In this document: piece by piece, positions 21,147-46,973 of the stretch
Layout of the letters: every line of letters starts with the position of its first letter
Position numbering within the stretch: position 1 is the first letter of the stretch
Origin: Rhizobium sp. NFR03
GTDB taxonomy: Bacteria; Pseudomonadota; Alphaproteobacteria; Rhizobiales; Rhizobiaceae
Length of the DNA stretch: 60,377 bases
Reading direction: 5' to 3'
NCBI RefSeq assembly: GCF_900111275.1
Contig: NZ_FOGR01000014.1
Location: forward strand, 1-60,377
The notes under the pieces: model-generated
Seen by the model: only the letters and a program-made list of their open reading frames with translations
What the model was told of the DNA's origin: nothing
Databases searched by the model: none
Position numbers and translations under genes: made by a program

Positions 21147-21149
21147 GAT

Positions 21150-22226: not shown

Positions 22227-22234
22227 ACCGCAAA

Positions 22235-22288: not shown

Positions 22289-22381
22289 GATTGAGAATCG
22301 CATTTCCCGGAATCACAGTCAAGAGTCTTGGCACCGATTTGGTGAGCGGATTTCCTTTGCCTGAAGAAAGGTGAGAGAAAA

Positions 22382-29243: not shown

Positions 29244-29326
29244 GGACGCTCCAAAAGGACGGTTTCGGCGGGCTCTAAGACCGTGATTTGCCCCGATTCT
29301 ATCTGATTCGCGACTCCAGATCAACT

Positions 29327-29355
29327 ACCATCGATAAGCATTACTTATCGATGGT
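29327..29355. promoter_or_regulatory. Perfect 12-bp inverted repeat between integrase and RHE_PE00001 gene
   Basis: ACCATCGATAAG (29327-29338) and CTTATCGATGGT (29344-29355) are perfect complements separated by CATTA. The form, two arms and a 5-base centre, fits either a dimeric repressor operator in the shared promoter or a tyrosine-recombinase core site. The sequence cannot decide between them. Confidence 0.55.
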
Positions 29356-29440
29356 TAGACCGCTATTTAGCAAGTATACCATGTGAGGAATAGCAATATA
29401 GAGATAGAGTTCTTATAAGAAATCATTTACAATGATTTCA

Positions 29441-30571
29441 ATGGCCTACGATCTCGCGAAAATCAGCATATCTACCTTGATGCGGCCGGCATTCGACGCC
29501 GGCCTCGCTCTCACGCGTCTGGACGAGCGCATCGCCCGTTCACCGGTTGGCGAGGGCTTTGTCGAACGCTCTCACTTCACCGACGCCTGCGCGTCTCTCT
29601 GGATCGACGGCGAATTGGTACATCTCGAAGACCTCGTTCTCCACGACCATGTCAGAGATATTCGCACACCCACCCACGAGCTGACCATCGCCCGCGACGT
29701 CCTGCGCACCCGCCGGCGCATTGCCGCCCAACTTCCCGGCTGGGCATTGTCGGCAGACGGACTTCGCACACTGCGAAAAACCTCGGAGATCACGGCGGTC
29801 GACGCTGACGAGGCGACGCCCGCCGACGCCATCCGGCGCGCGGTCGCGAACGATCCGGACGGCGAGGGGGACGACGCCGACGACATCGAACATCTCCCCG
29901 GCATCGATTATGCCGCCATCGATGCGGTTCTCGCCCGATCGGAGGGGGCAATCGAGAACGCTACGCGGCCGGGCCGGAGGGACGACCCAGAGAAAGATCC
30001 GATGATCTACGATCTCGACTGGGACGAGGACGCCCGGCTCGACGAATGGCGTGCGGTGTTGCGCCAAGTCGAAAATCTACCCGCAGTGCTGCAGGCCATC
30101 GTTGCTCTCGATGCCTGGAACGAAATTTCGGTACTGCAACATGCGCCCTGGCTCGGCCGGCTATTGGCCGCCTCCATCCTGCGCCAGGCAGGCGTCACGA
30201 CCGGCGCCCATCTCGCCGCCATAAACCTCGGACTGAAAACCATTCCCGTCGATCGGCGCCGGCATCGTGATCGGGAGACCCGGTTGCTCGCCATCGCCCA
30301 CGGGGTGATCGCGGCCGCCGAGATCGGACTAAAAGAACATGACCGGCTGGCGTTGGCCCGGACACTGTTCGAGCGAAAGCTGGAGGGACGCCGAACGTCT
30401 TCAAAATTGCCCGAGCTGGTCGAGTTGGTGATGGCGAAGCCATTGGTGTCGGCTGGGATGGTGGCGAAGGCGCTGGAGGTCACGCCGCAGGCGGCGCGGC
30501 GGATCGTGGCGGAGCTCGGACTCAGAGAGATGACGGGGAGGGGGAGGTTTCGCGCATGGGGGATCGTATAG
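29441..30571 (+). CDS. RHE_PE00001-family (DUF1612) putative DNA-binding protein
   Basis: A 376-residue protein beginning [21 protein letters not shown] and containing [29 protein letters not shown], the hallmark of the RHE_PE00001/DUF1612 family common on rhizobial plasmids. The C-terminus ([42 protein letters not shown]) is a helix-turn-helix. An Asp/Glu-rich linker lies near residues 140-155. ATG 29441 is chosen; ATG 29432 is possible. Its role is unknown; the context suggests regulation of, or partnership with, the divergent recombinase. Confidence 0.78.
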
Positions 30572-30706
30572 TGCAGAGGGCAGGCTCGCATAAAACATCT
30601 GCGAGTGTCTTCGAACGATTTCAAGAAATAGTTTTGGGCAAGTTATCTTTTCTATCGATGCGTGCGTTGCATGCTGCTAAGTATGCTGAAATGCATGGGG
30701 AAAACT

Positions 30707-32527
30707 ATGGGTCAAGTCGCAATCGATCTCTATTCCGGCTGCGGTGGGATGTCAGCCGGAGCCGCGGCGGCCGTTCCCGATCTGCAGGTCAAGTGGGCAC
30801 TCGACATCGACGTCAACGCCACCAAGACATTCGCAAATGCTCACCCTGAAGCTGTGGTTGACTGTTGCGACGTTTCTCTCGTGTCGGCGGCCGAGGTCGT
30901 GGAGCGGGCTGGGATCGAGAAGATCGACTGGTTCTTCGCGGGGCCGACCTGCCAGGCAGTGAGCACGATGGGTGTCTTCCATCTCGATGATCCGCGGAAC
31001 GCCCTCTTCGTCCACTTCATCCGGCTGCTCGACGGCTTCACCGCCGCCGGAAGGAAGCCGCGCCATGTCGTGATGGAGAACGTGCCCGGTGTGGTTTACG
31101 GCCAGAACCTTGTGATAGTCAAAGAACTGTTCAAGATCTTCAAGGAGCGCGGCTATTATGTGTTCGCCGACGTCGTGAACATGGCGGACTACGGGCTTCC
31201 GCAGCTCCGAAACCGCTTCATCTTGATCGCGACTGTCAACGAGGTGCCGCCGACTTTCCCACGGCGCACGCATGCTCCGGTGAAGAAGGGCGAACTCAGG
31301 GAATACGTTTCCGTCAGCGAGGCCATCGCCGATCTCGCAGTCGGTCAGGCCGACGACAAGGCTGTCGTCAAGCTGGCGTACCGCGGGCGCCCGACGCGGT
31401 TCCAGTCTTATGTTCGCGACGGCAACGGTTTCGCGCCGAACCATCACGGCAACCACTTGTCGGAGGTCAACAGGAAGCGGGTCGCCACCGTGCCGCAGGG
31501 CGGCTGCTGGAAGGACATTCCACCGGAGCTTCTCCCAGATCGGTTCCGCCGCGTCCGCCTGACCGACTACGCGACCCTGTATGGCCGCCTTCACGAGGCT
31601 TCGCCTTCCTACACGATCTCGGCCGGCTTCAACAACGTCACGTCCGGCTGCTTCACGCATCCCATACACGACCGCGCGCTGACGGTGCGCGAGGGTGCCC
31701 GCCTGCAGGGCTTCAGAGACTCCTTCGAATTCCTTGGCCCCAAGGAGGCGCAATACCGTCAAGTAGGCAACGCAGTTCCTCCATTCTTCATGATGCAACT
31801 GGTCCAGCACCTGATGTCCGGTGAAAAGGGGGTGCCCGCACGCATCACTGCCGCGGCCCTCGAAGGAGGCAAGAAGCTGCCGAGCATGGTGAAGCGCTTC
31901 ACGGCAAAGAGAAACGATTCCGAGCGCTCGCGGGACGGATACGGCGGCGGTACCTACTGGCCAGCGGGCTGGGGCGAGCCGATTGCCGCAGATGCCGTGG
32001 CCGCGAACGGCTACCGCCTCAAGGAGGACATGCCGCTTCGCTATCGGCGCCGTGACGAATGGCGAGCCAACCGGGACCGGTTCATCGACCAGGACATCGT
32101 CAAGGTCTACGATGCCCAGCGCCAGCAGCACGTGGCGGCAGGGTCAGTCGCATTTCCACTCGTCAAGCAGGACGACGTCGACGCTATCGATCGGGCAATT
32201 GTTCAGATACTTGCAGTCGTCGGCACTCGTCCCGGATCGCTGGAAGTCGATGCCCCGGTTCGATACCTGCGCGCCCGGACCAAGCTGCTGCACGAACAGC
32301 TGCGGGAGAAGCAGGCCGCCGACCTACCCGCCATGGAAATCGCTGACGACGAGGAGGTCATCAGGTTCGGCAAATCCGACGCCCTCTCACAGTTTGCGCG
32401 GCTCGCATTCGAGGATTCCGACCTGGCGGACACTGACGCTGTCCGGGGGCCACACCTTGTTCTCCACTGGCGGCACATGGAGGCCGACACCATTCGGATT
32501 GGACAAGACCTTCACGCGGAGCAATGA
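30707..32527 (+). CDS. druM: DruM-like C5-cytosine DNA methyltransferase, Druantia type II
   Basis: A 606-residue C5-cytosine methyltransferase. Motif I DLYSGCGGMSAG is at about 6-17, motif IV GPTCQAVS near 79-86 with the catalytic Cys, ENVPG near 124, QLRNRF near 165, TVREGARLQGF near 325 and GNAVPPFF near 354, then an extra 230-residue C-terminal region. The residue before the catalytic Cys is Thr instead of the usual Pro. It would methylate cytosine in host DNA, as self-marking or as part of the defence mechanism. ATG 30707 has GGGGA upstream; in-frame ATGs from 30662 do not. First gene of the operon. Confidence 0.88.
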   Translation: MGQVAIDLYSGCGGMSAGAAAAVPDLQVKWALDIDVNATKTFANAHPEAVVDCCDVSLVSAAEVVERAGIEKIDWFFAGPTCQAVSTMGVFHLDDPRNALFVHFIRLLDGFTAAGRKPRHVVMENVPGVVYGQNLVIVKELFKIFKERGYYVFADVVNMADYGLPQLRNRFILIATVNEVPPTFPRRTHAPVKKGELREYVSVSEAIADLAVGQADDKAVVKLAYRGRPTRFQSYVRDGNGFAPNHHGNHLSEVNRKRVATVPQGGCWKDIPPELLPDRFRRVRLTDYATLYGRLHEASPSYTISAGFNNVTSGCFTHPIHDRALTVREGARLQGFRDSFEFLGPKEAQYRQVGNAVPPFFMMQLVQHLMSGEKGVPARITAAALEGGKKLPSMVKRFTAKRNDSERSRDGYGGGTYWPAGWGEPIAADAVAANGYRLKEDMPLRYRRRDEWRANRDRFIDQDIVKVYDAQRQQHVAAGSVAFPLVKQDDVDAIDRAIVQILAVVGTRPGSLEVDAPVRYLRARTKLLHEQLREKQAADLPAMEIADDEEVIRFGKSDALSQFARLAFEDSDLADTDAVRGPHLVLHWRHMEADTIRIGQDLHAEQ

Positions 32528-32595
32528 TTTCGGTTGCGCCGATAAAGAAGCTGTTCGACTTTAGGTAAGTGGGGACGAGACGGGGTAGGGGGATC

Positions 32596-35037
32596 TTGGC
32601 TAGCTTCGAGGAGGAATGTATCGAGAGGTACTTTCTCGCGCCCGGTAACGCTGGGCCGATCGGGAGCGTGTACCTGTCGGATGAAGATCTCCTGGAGATC
32701 CTCGGAGTCAACGACATCGAAGAGGCGCGCCGCCGATTCATAAAGCTTTTGCCAGCTGGATCCAATCTTCGAGATTATCTTTCGGGTGAGCTTCAGCCGA
32801 CCCGCGCCAGTGTCCCGTCCTACATCCGGCTGCTGATGTTTCTGTGCTGGATGCAGACTACGGAGACACGCTGGGGCGGCACTCGCCAATTTCACGAAAT
32901 ATTCGAGGGTCACATCGGCTTTCGCCCTTGGAGTATGAGCGGGCTCAACGGGCTGTGGGAGCATTTCCGGGACTTCTTGAAAAAGGAACATGGAGTTATT
33001 CTCGTCCTGCCGGACATCCACCGCGTATACACGCAAATCGGTCGAACTCTGCAGTTGGCATTCCCGACCTGGCGGGACCGGGAGGCTTTGCGGAAGCTTA
33101 AGAGGCAGATTTCCGAACAGCACTTGCTCGACCCACTGGTCGTTGCAAACACTGTTCGAACTTCGCGAGGCTCGCTTGGTGAGACCATGCAGTCGTTCGT
33201 CTATAACTTCGAGGAATTCGATCAGGCTCGAAAGCGTGGCTTCAGAGAGTTTGAGAAAACGCCCTTCTGGAAGGCATGGTACGCGATTGTCGCCACGCAA
33301 GCTGCCGCCGAGTACATCGAGGTGATCGAAAGCGATTTTGGTGGTTACGAACTCTACCGCGTACCTCCGGTCGGGGATCGCGTTCTGATCTCGGCGCCGG
33401 AAGAGGCACTGAGGCTGGTCCCCAAGCCAATCGCGAAGTTGATTTCAAAAGGTTTGGTCTGCCTGGAGAGTCTGGGCTATGGACGATACCGGGCGCAGGC
33501 GAAGGCGACTTCCAATATTCTTCTGATGCACGCGACTAAGTTTGCACAATGCGACAGGTCGAACATCCGCTCTTCGGCGTCAATCAATTCAAAGTGGGTC
33601 GTGGCGACCCTTCGCGGGAAGCTGGGCGAGGCCGAGATCAGTGCCTCCGGTCAGAGGGAGTTCGGGTGGCATGATGGCATTAGAGTCGGTGCTGGAGCCT
33701 ACCTCGGAAGATCACCACTTACGCCGACCGTCTCCGGGCCTGTGCCTGAAGCGATCAAGGTAGAGGTGGGTGGAAAATCAGTTGGACTGATTAGGGTCGC
33801 AGACGACATGGCCCTACCGCCAGGTGTCTACACTGGTGCTGCGGTCGCTCGTAGTCTTGGGGCGTCGCACGAAGTGCTCCTGGTTGCTCGCGCGAACGAG
33901 GTCAGTTCGGTGCGGCGGATGCCAGTGGAGTTAGCGAAGGATATTCCTGAAGACGACTTCCACTATGGCACAGCTCCATCGGTCGCTCTCGACACAGAAG
34001 TCTGGTCGGGCGTTCGCATGGCGCCTGGCGACGAACTGCTGACGATCGGAGAAGCCCTCTACGAACGAACGGCTCGCGGTCTGCCGCTGTCTGAAGCTGT
34101 TGACATCGTCCGGCGTGGGGTTACTCTTCTCGAAGATCGCCCGTCCGAGTGGGATATCGTTCGATTGTTTGCGGATGCCGGGTGGCTCGAGCCAACCTTC
34201 CTTAGACATTTCCCGGCGCGACGTCTCCTTCAATTGCAACTGTCAGCGTATCCTGTCGACGAGACCACAGTAGTTATCTGCGGCCCAACGCCCCTGGCGG
34301 TCGTTGATAGGCTGACAGTTGCGGCAAGAGCCGCCGGCGGAGCGATCGAGACAAGAAATGGCGCCTCCTCATGGTCGCTTCCTCGGTATGTGTTCCGCGC
34401 GCAGAGCAGCGGCGGTGTCCAGGAGTTTCTGCGAAGAGCAGAACTAAGCTTGGCGCCGAAAAGCGCCCCGGCGGTGGCTGATCGCGCAGACCATGGCGAT
34501 CCCCACGGCTTCCGCGTCGTCGGCAAACTGTCACTCGACCGCGGGTTCTTTGCGACAGCCTTCGACAAAGAGATGACCGACGGTCTGTACCGCATCGAAC
34601 GGCCAGAAGGTCGAATGCACTTCTACTATCGTTCGGTAATCCCCGGAAAGCCTGATCAGAATTACGTTTCTCCATCCGTGGCGTTGTTGTCTCATCATCT
34701 ACGGCTCGGCGGGGAGGTGTTCGAGTTCAAGGACGGCATCGCCTTCGCTCGCGCGGCGAGGGTAAAGCTCCCGTCCAGCTGGGCAAGATGGGCTTCTGAC
34801 CTCTCACTGTGTAATCCCGGCCTGTCGAACGCTTCAGGTGTCTGGCGCTATGAGTATCCCGTGGGAGAAGCAGCGGTAGCCGCGATATCGAAACTGGTTC
34901 CAGTTTCGATGGACACGGGACTGACCAAGAGCTGGCGGGATGGGTTCGTCCTGTCTGCATCCAATCGAGATCGAAAAATCTATGACAACCGCTCGCGGCT
35001 GGTTCGCTCGGCGGCACGCATGCGCGGGAAGAAGTAA
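32596..35037 (+). CDS. druF: DruF-like protein of Druantia type II
   Basis: An 813-residue protein without a motif I recognise. It is assigned as DruF from its place between the methyltransferase gene and the druG-druE pair and from its size. The N-terminal half is rich in aromatic and charged residues (for example HIGFRPWSMSGLNGLWEHFRDFLKKEH near 110). No Walker motif or transmembrane segment is seen. TTG 32596 was chosen because AGGGGG precedes it; an in-frame GTG at 32569 is the alternative. Its stop overlaps the druG ATG (TAATG). Confidence 0.68.
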   Translation: MASFEEECIERYFLAPGNAGPIGSVYLSDEDLLEILGVNDIEEARRRFIKLLPAGSNLRDYLSGELQPTRASVPSYIRLLMFLCWMQTTETRWGGTRQFHEIFEGHIGFRPWSMSGLNGLWEHFRDFLKKEHGVILVLPDIHRVYTQIGRTLQLAFPTWRDREALRKLKRQISEQHLLDPLVVANTVRTSRGSLGETMQSFVYNFEEFDQARKRGFREFEKTPFWKAWYAIVATQAAAEYIEVIESDFGGYELYRVPPVGDRVLISAPEEALRLVPKPIAKLISKGLVCLESLGYGRYRAQAKATSNILLMHATKFAQCDRSNIRSSASINSKWVVATLRGKLGEAEISASGQREFGWHDGIRVGAGAYLGRSPLTPTVSGPVPEAIKVEVGGKSVGLIRVADDMALPPGVYTGAAVARSLGASHEVLLVARANEVSSVRRMPVELAKDIPEDDFHYGTAPSVALDTEVWSGVRMAPGDELLTIGEALYERTARGLPLSEAVDIVRRGVTLLEDRPSEWDIVRLFADAGWLEPTFLRHFPARRLLQLQLSAYPVDETTVVICGPTPLAVVDRLTVAARAAGGAIETRNGASSWSLPRYVFRAQSSGGVQEFLRRAELSLAPKSAPAVADRADHGDPHGFRVVGKLSLDRGFFATAFDKEMTDGLYRIERPEGRMHFYYRSVIPGKPDQNYVSPSVALLSHHLRLGGEVFEFKDGIAFARAARVKLPSSWARWASDLSLCNPGLSNASGVWRYEYPVGEAAVAAISKLVPVSMDTGLTKSWRDGFVLSASNRDRKIYDNRSRLVRSAARMRGKK

Positions 35038-37082
35038 TGTCGGGTTCCAGCAAGACAGTATTCCAGGTCGTCAAGGTATTGAATCACTCCTCCGCCCTGG
35101 TCGTGGAGATAAGAGGGGGCAGCTCCCAGACTGGGAGGCTACGGGAAACCAAAGAGCCGCGGATGGTACTCGATGGCGTCGGCTCTCTCTGGCTGGTCAC
35201 TGGAGAGAAGGACGAGCCAAAACACGTATTGGAGGACCTTGAGGAGCTGCCAGATTTCAGCGTGCCGATGGTCTCGACGCTGTCGTCGACGATCCGTGCC
35301 AGCTCTGAATTCGAGCTTCCGGCGACCGTCGAAGCATTCAACCTCCCCGGACATTTCAAGACGACCACTTTCGTCACCGTGACGCGCATCCTTGCAGCCT
35401 ATAGCGCGCGAGACATCGACTTCGAAGAGGTCGTTCGCCGACTGCGGGAGGGCAGGCTCGAAATCCCATCGAGAGAGATCATTGCCATCGAGGTGTCCAA
35501 AGGCGACTGGCTCACTAGCCATTTCATTCGCCTTCCTTCCGGTTCGTACGGGCTTTCGCCTGATGCGGATCCGCGAGCACTTCCTGTCAAAACCATCGAG
35601 AACAAGCCTGATTCGATGAAATTGCCGTCGGGCCTGCTGATCTTCCTGTCCGAGCCTCGATGGAGCCTCGAGACAGAAAAGGATGTCCGCCCCGAACATG
35701 AGGTGCTGGAGTCTGCCGAGCGCTGGCTCGGTCGTTCAACGCTCGCAGTAGAAAGCGCGCCGGGCGACGCTAATGCTGTCGACTTGCTTCGGCACCACGT
35801 GGCGACGACAGTCAATGACGACGAGAAAGCGGATATCGCCGCCGCGGCTCGACTTCTTGCAGGTCGCCAATCGATACTCGACATCATGCCACAGATCCTC
35901 GCGAAGGATCCTGCCTTTCAGAAGCGGGTTCAGGAGTTCGAGCTTCAGGAGCAGGAACGTCTCAAGGAAAGGCTCCGGTCGAAAGTCGAGTCCGAGATCG
36001 AAGCGGAGAAGGCTCGTCTCGGGGAGATTCGAGCGGAAATCGCCGAAGCAGATGCTCGCCTTGCCGTCGCCGGGCAGCGCGAACTGCTTCTTCGGAACGA
36101 GGCCGAAAAGCACGACGAGGTCATGAAAGCGCGCATTGAGGAAGCTGCAAAACAGCTGCAGGGCGGCGCAATAGAACAGACCGACCATCTTCGTCGTGAA
36201 CTCGATGAGCTTCGAGACCTGGTACTGCAAATGCCCAGCCATCCCACAACCGTCGTCGTGTCGGCGGCTGAGGAAATTCCGGAACCGCAACGGCCGGACG
36301 TCAATGGCACGGCCGTCGGGCCGAAGGCTGACGAGGGCGCGCGAAAGAGTATTCTCGCGGGCTTGGCATCTGCAACCGGGATCTCGCAAGCCGATTTGAT
36401 GGCGATCCTACTCAAATCGACAGACGAGGTCCCATTGCTTGTCGGCGAACGGGCTTCCGGCGTGGCAGCCGATATCGTGGCTGCCATCGGTGGTGAGGAC
36501 AGTGCGGTCGCCTTCTGCGATCCATCGCGTATTTCGTGGCAGGATCTCATGCACGACGAGACTTCGGGCCTCGCCGCAGCGGTGGCGAAGGCCAAGGCCA
36601 ATCCGGACATCCTCGTCCCGATAGCGATATGCGGCATCACCAATGGCCCCTGCGAGTACTGGCTTCCCCAGTTCGTGGAATCCAGGCGCATCGGGCGTCT
36701 TCCGCGGAACCTCGCAATAGTGGCCAGTGCGGGCATCGATGGGTCGCGAGTTTCGATACCAGACTCTGTCCTTCGCTTCCTGATGCCTGTCGAGGTGACG
36801 AACAGCGCCAAGCCCGTTCGCAGGTTGTTTGCCGGATCGTGGCCCGCGGAGTTCGACGCCAACCGGTCGAACCTCGCCGATGCGATCGACGTGCTCACGC
36901 AGTCGGAAGCATTCGAGAACGGGTCGCTCCAACGTGCCGCCAAGACGCTGTCGAGAACGCCACAGGGCATGGCGATGGCTGAGGTCGCCCAGGCACTCGT
37001 CCGGCAGGCCCAGTGGCTGGCGAGCGTCTCCGGCGGCGGACAATACGAATTCAAAAATCGCTTCAAGAATATTGAGGGCTGA
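35037..37082 (+). CDS. druG: DruG-like coiled-coil protein of Druantia type II
   Basis: A 681-residue protein. Residues about 300-400 form a long charged coiled coil (QEFELQEQERLKERLRSKVE and onward), suggesting a scaffold or oligomerisation role. The C-terminal third resembles no catalytic family I know, though a stretch around AGLASATGISQADLMAILLKSTDEVPLLVGERASG may begin a nucleotide-binding-like fold. Identity rests on gene order and on the start overlapping druF. It ends two bases before druE, so F, G and E are tightly coupled. Confidence 0.68.
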   Translation: MSGSSKTVFQVVKVLNHSSALVVEIRGGSSQTGRLRETKEPRMVLDGVGSLWLVTGEKDEPKHVLEDLEELPDFSVPMVSTLSSTIRASSEFELPATVEAFNLPGHFKTTTFVTVTRILAAYSARDIDFEEVVRRLREGRLEIPSREIIAIEVSKGDWLTSHFIRLPSGSYGLSPDADPRALPVKTIENKPDSMKLPSGLLIFLSEPRWSLETEKDVRPEHEVLESAERWLGRSTLAVESAPGDANAVDLLRHHVATTVNDDEKADIAAAARLLAGRQSILDIMPQILAKDPAFQKRVQEFELQEQERLKERLRSKVESEIEAEKARLGEIRAEIAEADARLAVAGQRELLLRNEAEKHDEVMKARIEEAAKQLQGGAIEQTDHLRRELDELRDLVLQMPSHPTTVVVSAAEEIPEPQRPDVNGTAVGPKADEGARKSILAGLASATGISQADLMAILLKSTDEVPLLVGERASGVAADIVAAIGGEDSAVAFCDPSRISWQDLMHDETSGLAAAVAKAKANPDILVPIAICGITNGPCEYWLPQFVESRRIGRLPRNLAIVASAGIDGSRVSIPDSVLRFLMPVEVTNSAKPVRRLFAGSWPAEFDANRSNLADAIDVLTQSEAFENGSLQRAAKTLSRTPQGMAMAEVAQALVRQAQWLASVSGGGQYEFKNRFKNIEG

Positions 37083-37084
37083 AC

Positions 37085-40000
37085 ATGTTCGATCCGATTG
37101 GTGGCTTCAACAGAATGATCGAACAGTTCCTGTCGTATCTCGATACGGCATATCGCATCGATAACCAGAATGTATCTGCGATGCGCAGGGAGCTGCTGTC
37201 GACGCCCGGCGAGCTTGCTCTCGATCCCATATTCGAGGCCGTTCCTCGCTACGAGACTGCAGGCTACGGCTTGGAGGCCCTTATTGAGGACAAGGACGGC
37301 GAGTTGCCGGGCTTCTTGAAGGCGGAGCGCCAGGCATTCGTGGAACTTGCCGTGTCAGGCCTGTTCGACCGCGACACGAAGAGCGCCGAAATCAAGGGCG
37401 CCTACCAACCGTATCTTCATCAGGTGCAGATGCTGTCGAAGGGCGTACAGGACGGGACGCCTGGGATCGTCACCTCGGGTACCGGTTCGGGCAAGACGGA
37501 ATCGTTCATGCTTCCTATCCTTGCCCAACTGGCCAAGGAGGCTACGAGTTGGCCTGCACCATTGCGGCCTGTAGACGACGACTGGCTGGAAGACGGCAAG
37601 AGCTTCCAGATCCATCGCCGCAACGAGCATCCTGACCGTCCCAAAGCGGTCCGGGCGATGATCCTCTATCCTCTCAACGCCCTCGTTGAAGACCAGATGG
37701 TGCGATTGCGCAAGGCGCTCGATTCCCCGGCGGCACAGGCAGTGATGCAGAAGCACTTCAGGGGCAACCGCCTCTTCTTTGGCCGCTACACGGGAAAGTC
37801 TCCCGTGACCGGGTTTCTCGATCATCCACGCAGAAGCAAGGACAAGACCTGGAAGAAGCGCAACAGCCGCGCGCGGCGCGATCTCAAGGTGGAGCTGCAG
37901 CGATACCAGTCGATCCATTCCCGGCTCGATGCAGATGCCGATCCAGATCTACACTATATCTTCCCGACGACCGACGGCAGCGAGCTGATCTCCCGTTGGG
38001 ACATGCAGAAGACGCCTCCGGATATTCTGGTCACCAACCAGTCGATACTGAACGCGATGTTGGTTCGCGAGGTCGAGGACTGCATCCTGAAGGAAACTCG
38101 CGAATGGCTGATCGGGAACGAGGACGCCAGGTTCTACCTCGTCCTCGATGAACTCCATCTCGTCCGCGGCTCCTCCGGCGCCGAAATGGCGGGGCTTCTC
38201 AAGGTGTTCCTCGAGCGTATCGGGCTCGCAGATCCCGCTCATGCTCACAAGCTCCGGATTCTCTCGTCGTCGGCATCGCTTCCGATGGACGAGAAAAACG
38301 CGTCGGCAAGTATCGAGTATCTCCGCAACATGTTCGGTGCCGCGGGAACCGCAGGTGCCTCCGACGTCGATGCTGCGTGGAAGGCCAGTGTCGTGACGGG
38401 CAAGCCGATCGTCGTCGAGCGGCCCGAGCGCACGCCGTCACGTGACAGCCTTGTCGCTCTGGCGAAGGCTTTGGACGACCTAGACTATAGAAAGCAGCCG
38501 GAGAAACTGCGTCAGCGATTTTTCGAAGCTGCTTTGAGCCTGCCAGGAGCGGCAGGCCAGGATTTGCGGTCGGTAATGCTGCACGCGACAGCCGCAGCGG
38601 CCGCCATGCTCGACTTCGCCATGCAGGACAGAGACAAGCCGGGAGCAAAGACACCGCGATCAATCGCACAGATCGGCGAGGTACTCTTTGACGAAGCAGA
38701 TAGGGAAGCAGTTCGCGGACTGCTTGCATTGCGAGCGATCCCAGATCTCCCGGACGACGTCCTAGCCGACGATCTCCGGCCATCCCGTGGCGACATCGCA
38801 AGCCTGCCGGGCTTCAGAATGCACAGCTTTGTCCGCAATATCGAAGGCTTGTTCGCTTCGGTCGGCCGCGACGACAGCGGCTCCGTGGCCTGGGGTTGCC
38901 CGAGTATCGAGCGCGGTCAGGACTATGACGAGAAGGCTGCTTCCGAAGGCCGTAGACGCATGTTCGAGATGCTGTACTGTGAAGCATGCGGTGACCTCTA
39001 TCTCGGAGGAAAGCGCGGGGAGAACGATCCGGGCTCGTCGCGCCGGGTATCGCTCTTGCCAGCGCCACAGGAACTCGAAAAGCTTCCGGAAAGCGCCTCG
39101 TCACTCCGCTTCGAGGATGCGAGCTTCCGCGAGTTCGCATTGTTCTGGCCGCAGGGGCGCACTCCCGAGCGTGAAATCCGTGTCGACAACACGCCGTACG
39201 AATGGATCGTCGGTTACCTGAATCCGCGTACAGGAGTCGTAGGAGAGGAGGAGAGCGAAGAGAGCGTTAAAGGATACCTTCTGCGGTGGCGTGGTGACGA
39301 CAAGTTCCACAAGCGCACGATCGAGGACGACGGCACTGCCGTTCCCTATTGCTGCGCGAAGTGTGGCACCGATTACTCCGGCCGATATCGGCAGGCTAAC
39401 TCGAAGCGAAGGGAAGGCCGCCTCTCTCCTATCAGAAGCTTCAGGACTGGTTTCGGCAAGACCTCGCAGCTGCTGGCGACTGAACTCGTCGCGGCTCTGA
39501 AATCGCAGGGCGGCGACGGAAAGCTCGTAGCCTTCTCCGACAGTCGCGAAGACGCGGCGACCCTGGTGCTCGACGTCGAAGTTCAGCATCAGCGCGACCT
39601 GAGGCGCGAGATCCTGATCGCTGCTGCCACACGTCTCGCCGCGGATCTCACCTACACCGACGAAGACAAGATGGAGCTCGCCGACCTCAACGCAGAAATT
39701 GCCGCCCTTATGGGGGAAGGGCATGAGTTCGACCATCTCATGCCCCGCCAACGAGTGCTCAACCGTAAGCGGAACGCCGACGGCAAGGAGCCGAGCGTAC
39801 CATTGAGCGACCTCTTCGAGTTCGCTCGACAGAACGTTCGGTACGACACTCGACCGATCCTCAACGAACTCATGAAGCTTGGCTCGACCCCCGTCGAGGG
39901 AGCTGACACCTACAAGAACCGCGTCTCCAACAAGTCGTGGTACGAGTTCTTCGATCGCGACGACAGCGGAGACATCACCTGGAAACGGGAAGAGCTCAAC

Positions 40001-42958
40001 GAAAAGGTCGATCTGCTCGCGAGGGCGAGAAAGAAGGTGCAGGACGAGCAGCCGCCGGATGCGACCGACCTTCTGTTCAGCAAGACCTATTTCGCCCTTG
40101 AAGAGACGGGCCTGGGATGGCCGAGCTTTTACGGGTCAGAGGAGTACACTCCCGAGAAGTCGAAGGACGATGCGATGCTCCGCATTTTTGCGGACGCATA
40201 TCGCATCACGCCTAATCCCTACATGGACGAGGTGAAGACAGTCTGGTCGACAGCTCACGAGATGCTCGGCCGCGGTGACAACCGCATGCGTCGTTTGATG
40301 TCGAAGCTGTTTCCTTTGCAGACAGAGGCGGAGTGCAATCTTTTCCTTGAAAAGCTCAGGACTAAGCTCCGGCAGACTCGTCTGGCCGGATCTATCGACA
40401 TCAGTCTTCTCTTCTTCAGGGCCGCGAAGCCGACCGGGGCGGCTTGGCGATGCGACCGCTGTGGACGAGTTCACCTGCACGAGGGCTTCGGGAAGTGCAC
40501 GCGCTGCGGCGAGGAGCTGAAGCGTCCGGACGATCTGACGGCCGAGGTCATTGCCAAGGGCAACTTCCTCGGGCGCCGCGTTAAGCGCACGATCGAGGCT
40601 GACGAGCCGCTCTTCCGCTTGAAGTGCGAGGAGCTGACGGGTCAGACGAGCGATCCGGCGGAACGGCTCCAGCAGTTCAAAGGCGTCTTTGTTAAGGGCG
40701 CGAAAGAGAACGACGCCGACTTTGCGTGGCGCAAGCTTTTCGACACCGTGGACCTGCTTTCGGTCACGACCACGATGGAAGTCGGTGTCGACATCGGCTC
40801 CCTTCAGGCCGTTTACCAGGCCAACATGCCGCCGCAGCGGTTCAACTACCAGCAGCGCGTGGGTCGTGCAGGTCGGCGAGGACAGGCGTTCTCGACCGTC
40901 CTCACCGTCTGCCGCAGCAAAAGCCACGACATCCACTACTTCCATAATCCGATCGAAATTACTGGATCGGCACCGCCTCCGCCCTTCATCACGACGGGGC
41001 TGACAGATATTCCGTCCCGCCTGCTTCGCAAGTTCTGGCTGGTGAAGGCATTTGGCCTGATGAGAGAGAAAGCCGATCAGGATTGGCCGGGCGACGACAT
41101 GGTGCCGGGAGACATCCACGGCGAGTTCCTCTATTGCAGCGAATACTTCCGCACGGACCGGAACTGGTCCGGAAAGCTTGCGGAAGCTCTGGACGAGACA
41201 GACGATCAGCGCAGGAAACTCGCGCAGGTGCTTGCCGACGTTTCGAAGTGCGACGTCGACCGGATCCTGTCCGCGGTCACTGCCGAAAAAGTGCTCGAAG
41301 CCATCGATGGCCTATTCGATGAACTGGGCCTGCAACCTATCGGCATTGCATCCGCGCTGGCGGAGCGCGGGCTGCTTCCTCTCTATGGCATGCCGACACG
41401 CACCCGAAACCTTTACGTCGATTTGGCCAAGGCAAAGGCTAAGGAGGACTTCGATGCAGACTGGGACACTATCGACCGTGACCAGGACATGGCGATCTTC
41501 GATTTCGCGCCCGGCAGCGTCCGCACGCGCGAGAAGCTCCGCCACCGTTGCATCGGCTTCACGGGAACGCTTCCCAAACCGAATGAGCACATCACGGACT
41601 TCGGCACCCCGATAAAGCCGTTCGGCGAGTGGTGGAAGGACGACTTTCAGCTTCGCTTCTGCGGAACCTGCGGTGCGTGGAGCCGAGGTTGCAACGAAAC
41701 GTCTGAATGCCCAGCCTGCGGCGCAGCGACGACGGATCCGGGTATCCGGTGCATAACGCCCGCGGGCTATCGCACCGAGTTCCGTCCGACGGACGAGAAT
41801 TTGGCTTCGAAGGTTGGTCAGCGGATGACGCTTGCCAGTATCGGCAAGGTCGACAAGGAGAAGACTGAGGCTAACCTGCAGGTGAACTTCGCCGAGCAGT
41901 CAGAGATCTTCCTCGTCAATCCCGGTCAGCGTGACGAAACGGACTTCACTGGCTTCCAGTTGCAGGAAGCGGTCGATCAGGACGCGAAGCGGATCTCTTG
42001 GTGGGCGAGCACGAAACCCGTCGTGAAGCTTGCGAATCAAGCCATCAGCGCCGAAGTCGTGGCCGAAGACCAAGGTGTTCGTTACCGTGCGGACGAGACG
42101 GTGATCAAGGCGTGGCTGGCGTCAACGAAGATCACCAACTCGCTCCAGATCAGCCCGATCCGGATGAACCCGAACCTGCGACTGCTCGACATGGACGTCG
42201 GGCTGTCGATGGGACGTCGCGAGCCTACAAGAACCAGTGTCCGCGCAGCGGCGATTTCGGCAACCGAGATCCTCGTGCAGCGCGCTGCTTTGGATCTCGA
42301 CATCGCACCGGAAGAGTTCGACGCCCTCGCGCCGAACATCATGATGACAGCTACGGGCGAGCGGCTTCCATATCTCCAGATATCAGACGCGTTGCCGAAC
42401 GGCTCCGGGTTCTGCCGTCACCTTCTCGGCGACAGCACTATTCCTGTTTCCGGTCTCATCAAGAGCATTCTTGACGATACCGAAGAATGGCCACGGCAGG
42501 ACGTTGCCGTGGAGGCTCACAGGAAGAGCTGCGGGTCCTCTTGCTACCGCTGCCTCCAGCGGTACAACAATCGAAACTTCCACGGGTTGCTCGATTGGCG
42601 GCTGGGGCTAGCCTATCTCAGGGCGATTGCAGATCCGTCCTATCAAGCTGGGGTCGATGGCGACTTCGGTTGTTTCGAGGTTTCGGACTGGAAGGCATCT
42701 GCGGCCGATCTTGCGGAGCAGACGAAGACGTTCATCCCCGGCAACACGGTCGCCCATGCCAAGGACAGACCGGATATCCCCACGTTTTCTCTGGACAACA
42801 GCGGTAGCCGTTGGGGTGTCGTGGTCCATCCACTGTGGGATGCAAGGAAGCTCTTCGACCGGATCGGGCTGGATCGCTCACACATCGCGATCGACAGCTT
42901 CGAACTTGCCCGGCGACCGCTGCACGTCTTGCAGCGTGCTCGCGCCGCGGTGAGGTGA
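37085..42958 (+). CDS. druE: DruE-like giant DUF1998 helicase, Druantia hallmark
   Basis: A 1957-residue SF2 helicase, in the expected size range for DruE. Motif I TSGTGSGKTE is near 131, motif II LDELH near 353, motif V MEVGVDIGSL near 1232 and motif VI QRVGRAGRRGQ near 1257. Several Cys clusters look zinc-binding: CEACG near 632, CCAKCG near 756, CDRCG...CTRCG near 1122, CGTCG...CPACG near 1526. A C-terminal DUF1998 block, KSCGSSCYRCLQRYNN, starts near 1813. The spacer between helicase motifs II and V is unusually long. Its 3' end overlaps the convergent vsr gene by 81 bases. Confidence 0.9.
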   Translation: MFDPIGGFNRMIEQFLSYLDTAYRIDNQNVSAMRRELLSTPGELALDPIFEAVPRYETAGYGLEALIEDKDGELPGFLKAERQAFVELAVSGLFDRDTKSAEIKGAYQPYLHQVQMLSKGVQDGTPGIVTSGTGSGKTESFMLPILAQLAKEATSWPAPLRPVDDDWLEDGKSFQIHRRNEHPDRPKAVRAMILYPLNALVEDQMVRLRKALDSPAAQAVMQKHFRGNRLFFGRYTGKSPVTGFLDHPRRSKDKTWKKRNSRARRDLKVELQRYQSIHSRLDADADPDLHYIFPTTDGSELISRWDMQKTPPDILVTNQSILNAMLVREVEDCILKETREWLIGNEDARFYLVLDELHLVRGSSGAEMAGLLKVFLERIGLADPAHAHKLRILSSSASLPMDEKNASASIEYLRNMFGAAGTAGASDVDAAWKASVVTGKPIVVERPERTPSRDSLVALAKALDDLDYRKQPEKLRQRFFEAALSLPGAAGQDLRSVMLHATAAAAAMLDFAMQDRDKPGAKTPRSIAQIGEVLFDEADREAVRGLLALRAIPDLPDDVLADDLRPSRGDIASLPGFRMHSFVRNIEGLFASVGRDDSGSVAWGCPSIERGQDYDEKAASEGRRRMFEMLYCEACGDLYLGGKRGENDPGSSRRVSLLPAPQELEKLPESASSLRFEDASFREFALFWPQGRTPEREIRVDNTPYEWIVGYLNPRTGVVGEEESEESVKGYLLRWRGDDKFHKRTIEDDGTAVPYCCAKCGTDYSGRYRQANSKRREGRLSPIRSFRTGFGKTSQLLATELVAALKSQGGDGKLVAFSDSREDAATLVLDVEVQHQRDLRREILIAAATRLAADLTYTDEDKMELADLNAEIAALMGEGHEFDHLMPRQRVLNRKRNADGKEPSVPLSDLFEFARQNVRYDTRPILNELMKLGSTPVEGADTYKNRVSNKSWYEFFDRDDSGDITWKREELNEKVDLLARARKKVQDEQPPDATDLLFSKTYFALEETGLGWPSFYGSEEYTPEKSKDDAMLRIFADAYRITPNPYMDEVKTVWSTAHEMLGRGDNRMRRLMSKLFPLQTEAECNLFLEKLRTKLRQTRLAGSIDISLLFFRAAKPTGAAWRCDRCGRVHLHEGFGKCTRCGEELKRPDDLTAEVIAKGNFLGRRVKRTIEADEPLFRLKCEELTGQTSDPAERLQQFKGVFVKGAKENDADFAWRKLFDTVDLLSVTTTMEVGVDIGSLQAVYQANMPPQRFNYQQRVGRAGRRGQAFSTVLTVCRSKSHDIHYFHNPIEITGSAPPPPFITTGLTDIPSRLLRKFWLVKAFGLMREKADQDWPGDDMVPGDIHGEFLYCSEYFRTDRNWSGKLAEALDETDDQRRKLAQVLADVSKCDVDRILSAVTAEKVLEAIDGLFDELGLQPIGIASALAERGLLPLYGMPTRTRNLYVDLAKAKAKEDFDADWDTIDRDQDMAIFDFAPGSVRTREKLRHRCIGFTGTLPKPNEHITDFGTPIKPFGEWWKDDFQLRFCGTCGAWSRGCNETSECPACGAATTDPGIRCITPAGYRTEFRPTDENLASKVGQRMTLASIGKVDKEKTEANLQVNFAEQSEIFLVNPGQRDETDFTGFQLQEAVDQDAKRISWWASTKPVVKLANQAISAEVVAEDQGVRYRADETVIKAWLASTKITNSLQISPIRMNPNLRLLDMDVGLSMGRREPTRTSVRAAAISATEILVQRAALDLDIAPEEFDALAPNIMMTATGERLPYLQISDALPNGSGFCRHLLGDSTIPVSGLIKSILDDTEEWPRQDVAVEAHRKSCGSSCYRCLQRYNNRNFHGLLDWRLGLAYLRAIADPSYQAGVDGDFGCFEVSDWKASAADLAEQTKTFIPGNTVAHAKDRPDIPTFSLDNSGSRWGVVVHPLWDARKLFDRIGLDRSHIAIDSFELARRPLHVLQRARAAVR

Positions 42959-43381
42959 CGCGGACGCCTTCTTGGCTTCGACCGTGGCGGCGATGCTCTC
43001 AACGATCGTCGCCACGTCCCCATGCTCCCAGAATCTGAGCACCGTCCAACCAATTTCCGTCAGATGCGCCGTCGCACGCGCATCCCTTGCCCGGTTGCGA
43101 GCGATCTTCGATAGCCAGAAGTCTGTATTCTTTTTTACCGATGGCGGGTGAAGTTCGCACCCATGCCAGAAGCAACCATCGAGGAAGATCGCGATTTTCA
43201 AGCCCGGAAAGGCGAAGTCACATGAGGTCCGTTTCAAGCCCGGGATCTTGTGATGGATCCGATAGCGAAACCTGCGCGCATAGAGCTGCGATCGAACAGC
43301 CCGCTCGAAGGGGTTATCCTTGCGCGCAGTGCGCTGCATTCGGCGGCGTACCGCTTCAGTGGCTTGCAAATTCTGAGACAT
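42878..43381 (-). CDS. vsr: Vsr-type very-short-patch / T:G mismatch endonuclease
   Basis: A 167-residue Vsr endonuclease with the full signature: NPFERAVRSQLYARRFRYR near 23-41, SCDFAFP (Asp55), IFLDGCFWHGCELHPP (His73, His78) and NTDFWLSKIARNRARD (about 85-100). Vsr nicks T:G mismatches that arise when 5-methylcytosine deaminates next to C5 methyltransferases, and so fits the druM gene nearby. It starts two bases after the EVE-HNH stop, forming a two-gene operon opposite to Druantia. Length is somewhat above the E. coli enzyme. Confidence 0.92.
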   Translation of the reverse strand: MSQNLQATEAVRRRMQRTARKDNPFERAVRSQLYARRFRYRIHHKIPGLKRTSCDFAFPGLKIAIFLDGCFWHGCELHPPSVKKNTDFWLSKIARNRARDARATAHLTEIGWTVLRFWEHGDVATIVESIAATVEAKKASASPHRGASTLQDVQRSPGKFEAVDRDV

Positions 43382-43383
43382 TG

Positions 43384-44334
43384 CTAAGGGATAAAGACAT
43401 TCATGCGGTGATGGTCCAGGTAGCTCCGGCTATCGTTATGTAACGGTCTCGGTGGTGGTCGCTGCACAACATGCATTCCTAGCTTGTCAGCGTCGGCATC
43501 TGTCAGCTGCGAGGAGAATATTGGTCTTCCATCGCTCTCGAAACCAAGCAGGCCGCGATCAAACAGAAAGTCTGCGTGAGGGGCCAACATCAAACCATTC
43601 GCTCCATCAAGCCTCTCGGCCGCGGTGCCGCATGCGCGCCAGGGTTTGATGTGACTGGCGATCAGAAGGGTTGGTGTGGCGAGGCCGGTGATTCGACAGA
43701 CAGGCTCGAAATCGAGCACCCGCTTCCTAAACACGCCCTGTCCCCTTCGTGCTCGCACCAACTGCTCGCGTACCGTCTCATCTAGCGAAATGTCGCGCTG
43801 GATGTTGCGTTCAACGACATCATCAAGCGTGGTGGCGAAATCAGCTGCCGTGCCGGTGGGCGCAGCGAGCAGATTCGCGGTAGGCAGCCGTGCGGCGGCC
43901 AAAACCAGATCAACTACGCGGCGATCGACCTCGGCCAGATATGCTTTCTGATTGCCATTTCCACTCTGCGGTTGGATTGGAGAGTGCTTCGTTGGAAGTA
44001 GCGGGGCGAGATCACTTATGAGTTCTTTAGGGCTGACTGCGAAAACCGCTTCAAGCCATTGCACCGGGAGAAGCCAGCCGGTGTCGCTCCAGTATACCCC
44101 GATGTTCCCAAACTCCTCCGGCTTTGGCGCGCTTATAACATAGTCGGAGACTATACCAACTCGTCCCACTTTCCCCGCGGCATAGGATAACACCACATCA
44201 CCCGGCGCTGCGCGGCGCATATTGTCGTAGAACTGGCTCCGGGCACCATGGGCTTCTCTAACCGGCGACCATAGGTAACCGCCGTCAACCTCCTGGCGCA
44301 TTGTCTGCGCGTGATTTACCCACCAATATCGCAC
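43384..44334 (-). CDS. EVE-like domain plus HNH endonuclease
   Basis: A 316-residue two-domain protein. Residues 1-95 (MRYWWVNHAQTM, YLWSPV, PGDVVLSYAAGKVGRVGIVSDYV, YWSDTGWLLPVQW) look like an EVE/PUA-type domain, a fold known to bind modified bases. Residues about 200-300 form an HNH nuclease: CRITG (Cys213), ASHIKPW (His228), LDGANGLML (Asn246), APHADFLFDRG (His253). The likely role is restriction of DNA carrying modified cytosine. It precedes vsr in the same operon. The start ATG is clear. Confidence 0.82.
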   Translation of the reverse strand: MRYWWVNHAQTMRQEVDGGYLWSPVREAHGARSQFYDNMRRAAPGDVVLSYAAGKVGRVGIVSDYVISAPKPEEFGNIGVYWSDTGWLLPVQWLEAVFAVSPKELISDLAPLLPTKHSPIQPQSGNGNQKAYLAEVDRRVVDLVLAAARLPTANLLAAPTGTAADFATTLDDVVERNIQRDISLDETVREQLVRARRGQGVFRKRVLDFEPVCRITGLATPTLLIASHIKPWRACGTAAERLDGANGLMLAPHADFLFDRGLLGFESDGRPIFSSQLTDADADKLGMHVVQRPPPRPLHNDSRSYLDHHRMNVFIP

Positions 44335-44531: not shown

Positions 44532-46973
44532 TTAGACCGCGACCACGGCCGCTGCCATGTTGTCAATAGCGACCTGTACCTCGGCATAAAGCTCGGCCGG
44601 GACAGTGCCGGCGTCGATTTCAACGACCAGCGCAAAGCGAGCATTAAGGTTATGGGGATTGGAGATGCTCTTCGCTTTCCACCATCCGGTCACGGGATGG
44701 ACTGCAATCAGATTGCGGCGTGCAAGGTCAGAGGCAGCACATGTCAGCTGATCGATCTGCAGCGATCCGACATCGCGCCGGTTCGGCCCAAACATCCAGC
44801 CATCCGGTTCCTCGATCGTTCCTTCATCTGTTTGCTCCGCAATCTTGCTGATCCTCTTAATAAAGGCGCCCGGCTTTTCATTAGGCCTGTTCAACTTGAA
44901 GCGCAGATTGTGCGACGCATAACGGTATTTGTTGCCGCGGGCCGGTTCTGACGGGTTTGGCAACATAAAGGTGCTGAGGCTGATACGCAGCTTGACCTCG
45001 GATGCGCCAAGCCGGCGCAGCTCTTGGACCGGCCAAGGAAGCTCGAACAGCTTCAGCTCGTTATGGATGTGCTCGGCATTCTTCGTGGCGCTCTTCTTGT
45101 AGGGCTGGATCGCGTCCTCGACTATCAGCGTCAAGGCATTCGATGCGCTGCGCCGTGCCCGCTCCATATCCGGAACGCCATAGCCATAGCGCCTGAAGAG
45201 GATTCCGAGATCCGTCTTCGACGGCTGCTGAGGAACGTGGCTGAGCATCCGGTTGGTCCATCGGGCCGACGACACGAAGATTGCCCGCACGGTTTCCGGC
45301 CAGAGCTCTGGATAGTCCGACCACAGCGCGGTGATGTCGCGCGAGGCAAGCGCTGTCGCCGCACTGGTCTCGCCGCAAGTCGTGAACGCCCGCGCCGGAT
45401 ATTGGTGATCGGTGGTGAGCGGCGCAAGGGCCGGATGTTTCATCGGCGGCGGCGCGCCGTGCATAAACCAGTTGCCACCCTCGTAGACGACGTCTGGCTT
45501 GATCGGCCAGTAGGATTGCCAGCTTGCGGTCCGCGATGATGGCGCCAGATCGCCCAAGGGCGCAACGCAAACGCCGGGCTCCCCCGGCGGCAGCGTGACC
45601 TTCTGCGTATAGGCGCCAACACTGATTGCATTCCATGCTTGCGCTGGCGATTCCAGCTCGTTGTCGGGGTGATCGGAGACGGCGAGATAATTGCCACCGG
45701 TGAAAGCGTTCTGGTCGCTGTTGCCCGCCGAGACCAGTATAAGTCTCTGGCGTCTTTGCAGCCCTGATGCGCCGGACGCGAGCTGATCGATTTCACTCGA
45801 CCAGGACGTCGGCGCGCCGTCATGTGGTGTGTCGTCTTCCGTGGTGCTCGCCAGGCAGAAGGTCCGCCGCCGGACCGCAGCCGCCTCCGCCGCATTGATG
45901 CCCTTGCGGGTCACGGTTCCGAGCAGATGATGGGGATTGTGACCGGCATCCGGCATGATCTTTGCTGATTCCAGCCGGTGACCGATGGTGATCGGCAAGG
46001 TGGTCTGCAAGGCCGTGCTCAGATCGCCGAACAGCGCCAGGCCGGCCAGCTGCGTGCCATGCCCGACGAAATCGTTGACGTCCCATGCCGCCTCCGCGGC
46101 ATGCCGGTCGGCTGCCGCCAGTGCGGGCTGGATCAGAGGATGGGCCCGGGTCACGCCGCGATCGAGGAGCGTGATGTAGTTCGGATCGGCATCGACGGAA
46201 AATGTCGTGCGGCCGACGAGATCACCGACCCACTCATGCTGTTCCTCGATCGGCATGGCATCGAAATCGTCCGCGGTGCGGGTCGGCGTCGCAAGCGCCC
46301 GGACACCGCCAAGATTTCGGACTGCGGCTGCCAGTTCGACGGCAGTCGCAACCGCGATCACCACCACATCTTCCGGAAATTCCAGCCTGTCGGTTCCGAC
46401 CGCAACACCGTAGTCCGCGGCACTGGCGAGAAAGCCAGGGGCGTCCGACCTTCCAAGCCAAACTTCCCAAGCCTGCTTGCCGGGCTGCGTCGGAAACCGG
46501 CCACCGGGACTGCGCCATAAGGCCCGGAGCCCGGCCTCGGAAATCGCGCTGATGCTTTGCACCAAATCGGCGTTCTTCGGCGGTTTGAAGCTTCCGTCTT
46601 CGTTGACCGGTAGATCGCCGCCAAAATCCTCGATCTTCTTGCGAAGCTTCTCGATGCCTTTTTCGGTCGCAAATACCGTCGCCGCCGCCGTCGCGCCGGG
46701 CTGCTTCTCGACTTTAAGAAGCGTCAGCCCGCTGGCGTTCAGGCTCTTGGTGACCATCACCTCATGCGCCCGTCCCTCGATCGCGAGGTAGACGCCCGGT
46801 AGATTGTTCTCGGTGATGTTCGGGAGGTGGTCGAGGGCAGTCAGCAGCGCCTGCGCATGCGCCTCACGGTGGTTGACGTCACTTGGATGTTTTGACGATC
46901 CGCCGGTTTTTGCTGCGAACGGGCGCGTCTTTCCGATCCCGCTCAGTGTGAAGTGGCGCCGATCTCGAGCCAT
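44532..46973 (-). CDS. ietS: IetS-like subtilisin-family serine protease
   Basis: An 813-residue S8 peptidase. The catalytic triad is visible as Asp271 (ITLLDRGV), His305 (FVGHGTQLAG) and Ser537 (CGETSAATALA), with the oxyanion Asn near 418 (VSAGNSD). No signal peptide, so cytoplasmic. Paired with an AAA ATPase, it matches the IetA-IetS system first described on an Agrobacterium Ti plasmid as an incompatibility-enhancing toxin-antitoxin and later listed among anti-phage systems. Its start lies 95 bases inside the ietA 3' end. Confidence 0.85.
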   Translation of the reverse strand: MARDRRHFTLSGIGKTRPFAAKTGGSSKHPSDVNHREAHAQALLTALDHLPNITENNLPGVYLAIEGRAHEVMVTKSLNASGLTLLKVEKQPGATAAATVFATEKGIEKLRKKIEDFGGDLPVNEDGSFKPPKNADLVQSISAISEAGLRALWRSPGGRFPTQPGKQAWEVWLGRSDAPGFLASAADYGVAVGTDRLEFPEDVVVIAVATAVELAAAVRNLGGVRALATPTRTADDFDAMPIEEQHEWVGDLVGRTTFSVDADPNYITLLDRGVTRAHPLIQPALAAADRHAAEAAWDVNDFVGHGTQLAGLALFGDLSTALQTTLPITIGHRLESAKIMPDAGHNPHHLLGTVTRKGINAAEAAAVRRRTFCLASTTEDDTPHDGAPTSWSSEIDQLASGASGLQRRQRLILVSAGNSDQNAFTGGNYLAVSDHPDNELESPAQAWNAISVGAYTQKVTLPPGEPGVCVAPLGDLAPSSRTASWQSYWPIKPDVVYEGGNWFMHGAPPPMKHPALAPLTTDHQYPARAFTTCGETSAATALASRDITALWSDYPELWPETVRAIFVSSARWTNRMLSHVPQQPSKTDLGILFRRYGYGVPDMERARRSASNALTLIVEDAIQPYKKSATKNAEHIHNELKLFELPWPVQELRRLGASEVKLRISLSTFMLPNPSEPARGNKYRYASHNLRFKLNRPNEKPGAFIKRISKIAEQTDEGTIEEPDGWMFGPNRRDVGSLQIDQLTCAASDLARRNLIAVHPVTGWWKAKSISNPHNLNARFALVVEIDAGTVPAELYAEVQVAIDNMAAAVVAV

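Follow-up and report, generated by a model that had tools for sequence, protein, structure and literature searches.

The 60,377-nt stretch analysed here (the window; contig NZ_FOGR01000014.1 of Rhizobium sp. NFR03, with all positions given for the whole window) carries a type II Druantia defence system, encoded by druM, druF, druG and druE, which is followed on the opposite strand by genes for a Vsr protein and an EVE-HNH endonuclease. We propose that the locus is a type II Druantia with two add-ons, in which the EVE-HNH protein would be a type IV nuclease recruited against cytosine-modified phages, and we give this reading about an even chance of being correct. The six genes are arranged as follows.

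30662-32527, + strand: druM, 621-aa C5-cytosine DNA methyltransferase, GTG start
32569-35037, + strand: druF, PADLOC DruF2 (PDLC00019), 3.2e-32
35037-37082, + strand: druG, divergent, homologous to the DruG of locus L057, itself PADLOC DruG2
37085-42958, + strand: druE of type II, 1957-aa helicase, PADLOC DruE2 (PDLC00014), 2111.5 bits over residues 1-1954
42878-43381, - strand: vsr, 167 aa, NCBIfam TIGR00632, 104.9 bits (cut-off 97.85)
43384-44334, - strand: EVE-HNH endonuclease of VcaM4I type, 316 aa, match to VcaM4I (6yex), residues 2-314, E 1.6e-70

As the initial annotation had it, the system is a type II Druantia: the four genes lie in the order of that type, DruE2 and DruF2 are recognised directly and DruM is present as a cytosine methyltransferase. 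The window DruG protein gave no match to the PADLOC DruG model, and it is assigned to DruG2 through a homologue, the DruG of L057 (27% over 329 positions, E 1e-25), which the PADLOC DruG2 model recognises (1.9e-11). The description of DruM as a C5 methyltransferase also holds, with scores of 157.5 bits for PF00145 and 135.7 bits for TIGR00675 and with the stretches GPTCQ, ENV and GNAVPP, which we take to be C5-methyltransferase motifs. Judging from these catalytic motifs, DruM should produce 5-methylcytosine (5mC). The protein matches PADLOC DruM2 (1.1e-75), general type II methyltransferase models scoring slightly higher, and its frame starts at the GTG at 30662, with in-frame ATGs, 30707 among them, further on. 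It has a C-terminal extension of more than 200 residues without a Pfam match; DruM frames are shorter in many other loci. DruM has been called requisite for type II Druantia (PMC8565338), a type also named Type IV CoCoNuT (PMC12458937). Work on Druantia III describes a helicase-nuclease role for DruE and suggests that subtype-specific partners set its activation (PMC13192584); for the partners specific to type II, the papers covered gave no mechanism.

The stop of the HNH gene and the start of vsr are separated by two bases on the strand opposite druE, as first described, with the correction that vsr does not lie clear of druE: the 3' ends of the two genes overlap by 81 nt, tail to tail. A comparable overlap is found in loci L049, L050, L052 and L055. 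The window differs from known type II Druantia both in its divergent DruG and in the vsr and EVE-HNH genes that follow on the opposite strand. In the open-licence papers covered by the literature search, to which this negative is limited, neither EVE-HNH nor a separate vsr gene is described as a companion of type II Druantia.

The Pfam scan of the HNH protein returned HNH_2 (PF13391) as its only family and no EVE family, and the EVE assignment is made because of homology to VcaM4I and the match in fold. A profile of nine HNH relatives matched one solved structure strongly and almost end to end, namely 6yex with its companions (E 3.1e-102). The best Foldseek match was also 6yex (title: VcaM4I restriction endonuclease), with YTH structures and 2eve, which is described as an EVE domain (PMC7897488), lower down; the AlphaFold model has a mean pLDDT of 61 and is good for the EVE half only. 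In VcaM4I, a flipped 5mC or 5-hydroxymethylcytosine (5hmC) is held by Y130, W82 and P24 and contacted by Q10, T11, W22 and E15, while Q128 fills the gap left by the flipped base; base flipping and autoinhibition of the HNH dimer have been shown, 5hmC DNA is cut faster than 5mC DNA and phage T4gt is restricted ~34-fold (PMC7897488). The window protein is ~40% identical to VcaM4I in the fold alignment and resembles it over its whole length. Its P24, W82 and Y132 correspond to the pocket residues P24, W82 and Y130, its Q10, T11, E15, W22, S23 and Q129 align to contact or wedge residues, and its H228 aligns to the catalytic HNH histidine H224. The wedge loop differs by one extra residue, Lys130, which is inserted between the intercalating Gln and the pocket Tyr. 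These similarities place the protein in a family of nucleases that sense modified bases, as the initial annotation had supposed, and they point to a modification-dependent nuclease of VcaM4I type, for which cutting of foreign modified DNA is predicted by analogy with VcaM4I. EVE-HNH nucleases have been described as putative type IV enzymes (PMC7641849).

Two other assignments were abandoned. A phosphorothioate-binding HNH (NCBIfam NF045808) was rejected, as the model scored 22.1 bits against a cut-off of 180 and matched the HNH half only. The suggestion that HNH proteins of other Druantia II loci (L049, L055, L064, L069, L072, L075, L078 and L091) are modification-dependent as well was dropped; the Pfam scan of seven of these eight (all but L069) gave HNH_2 only.

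Modification-dependent nucleases are described as lacking a companion methyltransferase (PMC7897488), because they target modified DNA. The window EVE-HNH, in contrast, shares its locus with the C5 methyltransferase DruM. The frequency of this arrangement was assessed by scanning a species-genome collection with a DruE alignment, taking the best 80 of at least 541 confirmed relatives; the gene content of each locus was determined by HMM searches of open frames of at least 60 aa, with EVE-HNH counted above 300 bits. A DruM-type C5 methyltransferase is present in 69 of these 80 Druantia II loci and EVE-HNH in eight (L050, L057, L060, L074, L080, L098, L119 and L126), or in 7/51 where druF and druG were also found. 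For comparison, an EVE-containing relative was found anywhere in the genome for 19 genomes over 976 non-own searches, which comprised three genome samples with some genomes drawn twice and a cut-off of E 1e-3 for the first and 1e-18 for the other two; three of the 19 matches are partial (G599, G622 and G898). The difference between 8/80 and 19/976 has a P value of 1.7e-4, which serves as a guide, since the loci are non-independent and the baseline counts any genomic copy. Closeness to the window is not the cause of the association, because among the nine loci with a DruE 62-80% identical to that of the window (L049-L056 and L061) only L050 has EVE-HNH. The same EVE-HNH subfamily occurs at Druantia II loci of other genera, and the gene sits at the 3' end of druE, on the other strand, in the window, L050, L057, L080, L098 and L119. 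The presence of EVE-HNH at Druantia II is therefore more than chance.

A tree of 33 EVE-HNH rows contains a clade of ten rows (support 100/97), nine of which come from Druantia II loci, one of them a remnant. The tenth, G945, lies with a C5 methyltransferase and Vsr and has no DruE in the fetched stretch. A C5 methyltransferase is present in the same locus for all ten rows. Five rows came solely from DruE-based or window sampling; the other five (G101, G945 and the R. phaseoli, S. medicae and A. pusense plasmids) came from HNH-directed searches, and each of these shares its locus with a C5 methyltransferase and with vsr, although the vsr frame of G101 looks broken. Four of the five are Druantia II or its remnant. 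These observations support a new EVE-HNH clade that is seen only in Druantia II or C5-methyltransferase/Vsr loci. Outside the clade, the Druantia II loci L126, L119 and L074 have EVE-HNHs that are more distant, and in G738 adjacent vsr and EVE-HNH genes lie near a C5 methyltransferase and an SNF2-type helicase. A further 19 rows were scored as neither, having no methyltransferase or Vsr in the fetched stretch, several of which end at contig ends. Such content is noted for L161 and L162. In L161 (2540-9776), a C5 methyltransferase that matches the L060 DruM at 86% over 165 aa is accompanied by vsr and a clade EVE-HNH, with no DruE in the stretch, and the group is a possible travelling cassette. 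L162 (5311-10826) combines a C5 methyltransferase, an SNF2-type helicase related to ZorD/DpdE, vsr and EVE-HNH, and may be a second 5mC system that carries these two add-ons.

The extra wedge-loop residue follows the same division. Lys130 is found in 14/14 EVE-HNHs from Druantia II or C5-methyltransferase/Vsr loci (L119 being counted though its methyltransferase is out of view at a contig end) and in 1/15 others (G387). The count leaves aside the long branches L035, L037, L038 and L173 and the partial rows L169 and L172, of which L172 also has Lys, against the trend. The Fisher value of 2e-7 ignores kinship, most of the 14 being one clade. Close relatives differ in step with their loci: G738 has Lys where G917 has Ser and G654 Gly, and L074 has Lys where L178 has Gly and L185 Ser. 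We regard Lys130 as a candidate adaptation to the 5mC predicted to be made by DruM.

The EVE-HNH gene and its neighbours do not share a single history. Across the window, L057, L060, L080 and L098, the EVE-HNH proteins are 67-80% identical, whereas DruE is 39-51%, DruF mostly 23-30% and DruM mostly ~25% identical (53% for the window and L057). The methyltransferases compared across the clade fall into at least four groups, with 22-38% identity between groups, often over short stretches: the window, L050 and R. phaseoli, with L057 at 53%; L060 and G945 (86% over 165 aa); L080 and A. pusense (69%); and L098. Conversely, L074 and L080 are similar in DruE (79%) and DruM (72%), yet their HNH proteins are 37% identical. 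No Vsr was found within the fetched stretch of L080 or L098, both of which have EVE-HNH. From the similar HNHs beside mostly unrelated DruMs, the lack of a Vsr in view at two loci and the L074/L080 mismatch, EVE-HNH looks like a gene that was recruited repeatedly, usually to the opposite strand at the druE 3' end. In L060 it lies at 3850-5034, on the opposite strand between druM/vsr and druF.

The Vsr protein belongs to the same TIGR00632 family as E. coli Vsr (1cw0), which it matches with E 3.8e-14. The Asp51 and His69 positions are kept in the alignment, and the position of His64 is occupied by Asp in a DGCFWHG-type stretch that is common to the window Vsr and its near relatives L049-L052, L055 and L061. 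The protein is linked to a 5mC methyltransferase in that druM lies in the same locus, and across the whole genome a single Vsr and a single C5 methyltransferase were found, both at the Druantia locus. Vsr is present in 46/80 Druantia II loci, that is, in 45/69 with DruM and in 1/11 without a DruM match, several of the latter being cut contigs or distant types. As a baseline, 141 genomes of the class (own genome excluded) have a Vsr within 6 or 12 kb of 24/84 C5 methyltransferase hits (22 of the 64 strongest), and 24/31 Vsr hits in the same genomes are accompanied by a C5 methyltransferase. The 84 hits were merged by hand and include fragments, with G365:C157 under the cut-off and two sub-cut-off Vsr hits omitted. 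Vsr is thus commoner at Druantia II than at C5 methyltransferases generally (45/69 versus 24/84; Fisher 8e-6). In Caulobacter, a Vsr-like protein may stabilize a methyltransferase gene, with methyltransferase loss leading to a Vsr-dependent damage response (PMC12907096). Gene positions vary: in L057, vsr (4837-5217) lies between druM and druF and its frame looks broken after ~73 residues, and the DruE2 locus L045 (G630; 11798-13422) has druE, then a PDDEXK_1 nuclease gene, then vsr.

The initial annotation had suggested that the six genes form one extended system and had named a lack of enrichment beside Druantia II as evidence against it. Both Vsr and EVE-HNH proved to be enriched there. The co-evolution of such a system is not borne out, because EVE-HNH is found in only 8/80 loci, no Vsr is in view in L080 and L098, and DruM is mostly ~25% identical where HNH is 67-80% identical.

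Under our proposal, DruM would make 5mC, which probably serves Druantia as a self mark or a regulatory one. The most likely role of Vsr is to nick the T:G mismatches left by deaminated 5mC, limiting the mutation cost, and Vsr would for this reason belong with the methyltransferase. By analogy with VcaM4I, the EVE domain would flip and hold a 5-modified cytosine, and the autoinhibited HNH dimer would cut. EVE-HNH would complement Druantia II by attacking phages that would evade or imitate the DruM mark through 5hmC-like cytosine modifications. The lineage recruited in this way would need to tolerate DruM 5mC, whether through a preference for 5hmC over 5mC as the base, through context or through expression.

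Several observations weigh against this proposal. VcaM4I binds 5mC about as strongly as 5hmC (PMC7897488), and a nuclease sharing the cell with a C5 methyltransferase is for this reason a risk. In the stretches covered, an EVE-HNH over 300 bits is lacking from 72/80 Druantia II loci, so that EVE-HNH looks like an occasional and seemingly dispensable add-on. The EVE-HNH lineage and the methyltransferase are both common to L060 and G945, which runs counter to free exchange and indicates that methyltransferase, vsr and HNH genes may at times move together as a cassette that lacks Druantia; the R. phaseoli plasmid retains druM, vsr and EVE-HNH although its druE is a remnant. Finally, the third HNH residue of L060 is changed to Gln, an insert splits the L119 EVE-HNH and the frame of the S. 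medicae copy is broken, defects in keeping with a weakly selected accessory.

Alternatively, Druantia II, Vsr and EVE-HNH could be independent passengers that share a mobile defence island, EVE-HNH and Druantia being functionally unconnected; we consider this possible but somewhat unlikely. The occurrence of EVE-HNH beside unrelated DruM groups, sometimes with no Vsr in view, is consistent with this explanation, as are the other defence genes that flank the block (IetAS and a HamB-like helicase) and the location of most EVE-HNH relatives outside the clade elsewhere. An island effect alone, however, explains neither why one clade was seen only in Druantia II or C5-methyltransferase/Vsr loci, when related lineages are mostly elsewhere, nor the repeated opposite-strand placement at the druE 3' end in the loci listed above.

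The EVE-HNH lineage might also be a dedicated partner of 5mC-making defence, in which Lys130 would spare host 5mC while other modified cytosines are cut. It would then form a two-tier system with Druantia, which would handle unmarked DNA and leave over-modified DNA to EVE-HNH. We put this forward tentatively and regard it as rather doubtful. To our knowledge, there is no description of a modification-dependent nuclease lineage that has adapted to coexistence with a methyltransferase acting on the same base.

It seems unlikely to us that EVE-HNH can cut DruM-methylated DNA and is held silent or in check by DruM, becoming active upon DruM loss or inhibition as a stabilizing or abortive switch. 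That VcaM4I binds 5mC DNA and cuts it, if more slowly than 5hmC DNA (PMC7897488), argues for such an arrangement, and PcaRCI/PcaRCII offers a precedent, a 5mC-dependent HNH nuclease that is silenced by the resident methyltransferase (PMC8989522); by analogy, silencing of this kind is the main mechanistic rival to our proposal. PcaRCI/PcaRCII resembles the window in combining a C5 methyltransferase system and a modification-dependent HNH nuclease in one genome. It differs in that methyltransferase and nuclease are in conflict, resolved by silencing, and in that no methyltransferase gene lies near the nuclease gene and the nuclease N-terminus is not described as EVE (PMC8989522). Consistent with conflict, genomes with an EVE-HNH lacking Lys130 have a C5 methyltransferase in 1/11 cases versus 52/141 class genomes, a weak depletion (binomial 0.047, Fisher 0.098). 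The DruM neighbours of the ten-row clade, however, belong to at least four groups with 22-38% identity between them, and a single promoter-methylation logic would need to be re-invented for each.

We also think it improbable that Vsr acts as a functional nuclease component of Druantia II instead of a repair enzyme, replacing a Vsr-like domain of DruE. Type II DruE is described as having a Vsr domain at its end that is predicted to be inactivated (PMC12458937), Vsr is commoner at Druantia II than near C5 methyltransferases overall, and in a partial Mantel test the Vsr distance follows DruE (0.38, p 0.001) more than DruM (0.04, p 0.204), the DruM distances being largely saturated. Pairwise contrasts do not clearly separate the two genes: the median Vsr identity is 0.46 where only DruM is similar (34 pairs), 0.52 where only DruE is similar (17 pairs, 11 with L090), 0.57 where both are (73 pairs) and 0.43 in the background (767 pairs). 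Against this role, Vsr occurs in just one of the 11 loci without a DruM match, cut or distant as several of these are, and among the 46 loci with both Vsr and DruM (window included) it lies within 1 kb of DruM in 27 and of DruE in 24 (DruM only 19, DruE only 16, both 8, neither 3).

A restriction-modification pair based on DruM, in which EVE-HNH would be the cognate restriction enzyme and would cut DNA without the DruM mark, is highly improbable: the C5 methyltransferase in every clade locus would suit such a pair, but the same HNH type lies beside unrelated methyltransferases and the EVE pocket is of the modified-base reader type.

The block is bordered upstream by two genes outside the core.

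28095-29324, - strand: phage-integrase-family gene (PF00589) at the block border
29432-30571, + strand: DUF1612/HTH_13 gene, directly upstream of druM

Together, the integrase and the DUF1612/HTH_13 gene (28095-30571) suggest a recombinase-carried element. An annotated integrase is found at the same end of the block on plasmids, alone in R. phaseoli and with an RHE_PE00001-family gene in A. pusense and S. medicae; this gene occupies the place that the DUF1612/HTH_13 gene has in the window, a likeness in position. Genes resembling repABC plasmid replication and partition genes lie near the defence block (19956-23626), and a DruE 99.7% identical to that of the window is encoded on an A. tumefaciens F2 plasmid typed as conjugative. 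The block thus stands next to plasmid-type replication genes and is apparently mobile. A second defence pair, an IetS-like subtilase and an IetA-like AAA ATPase (44532-47961), is encoded on the same strand directly upstream of EVE-HNH. On the other side, at 24643-27918, lies the gene for a 1091-aa helicase that is partly like Hachiman HamB (PADLOC 1.5e-31, best stretch 312-518). The 287-aa gene preceding it gave no family match and is a possible divergent HamA partner.

The locus matters because the mark of DruM could make host DNA a target of the adjoining nuclease, whose characterized relative cuts DNA with modified cytosine. With a nuclease lineage that recurs with C5 methyltransferases and a candidate residue in its DNA-reading loop, self-tolerance in type IV restriction becomes directly testable. 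The arrangement also suggests a way in which Druantia II might be backed up when phages carry modified cytosine.

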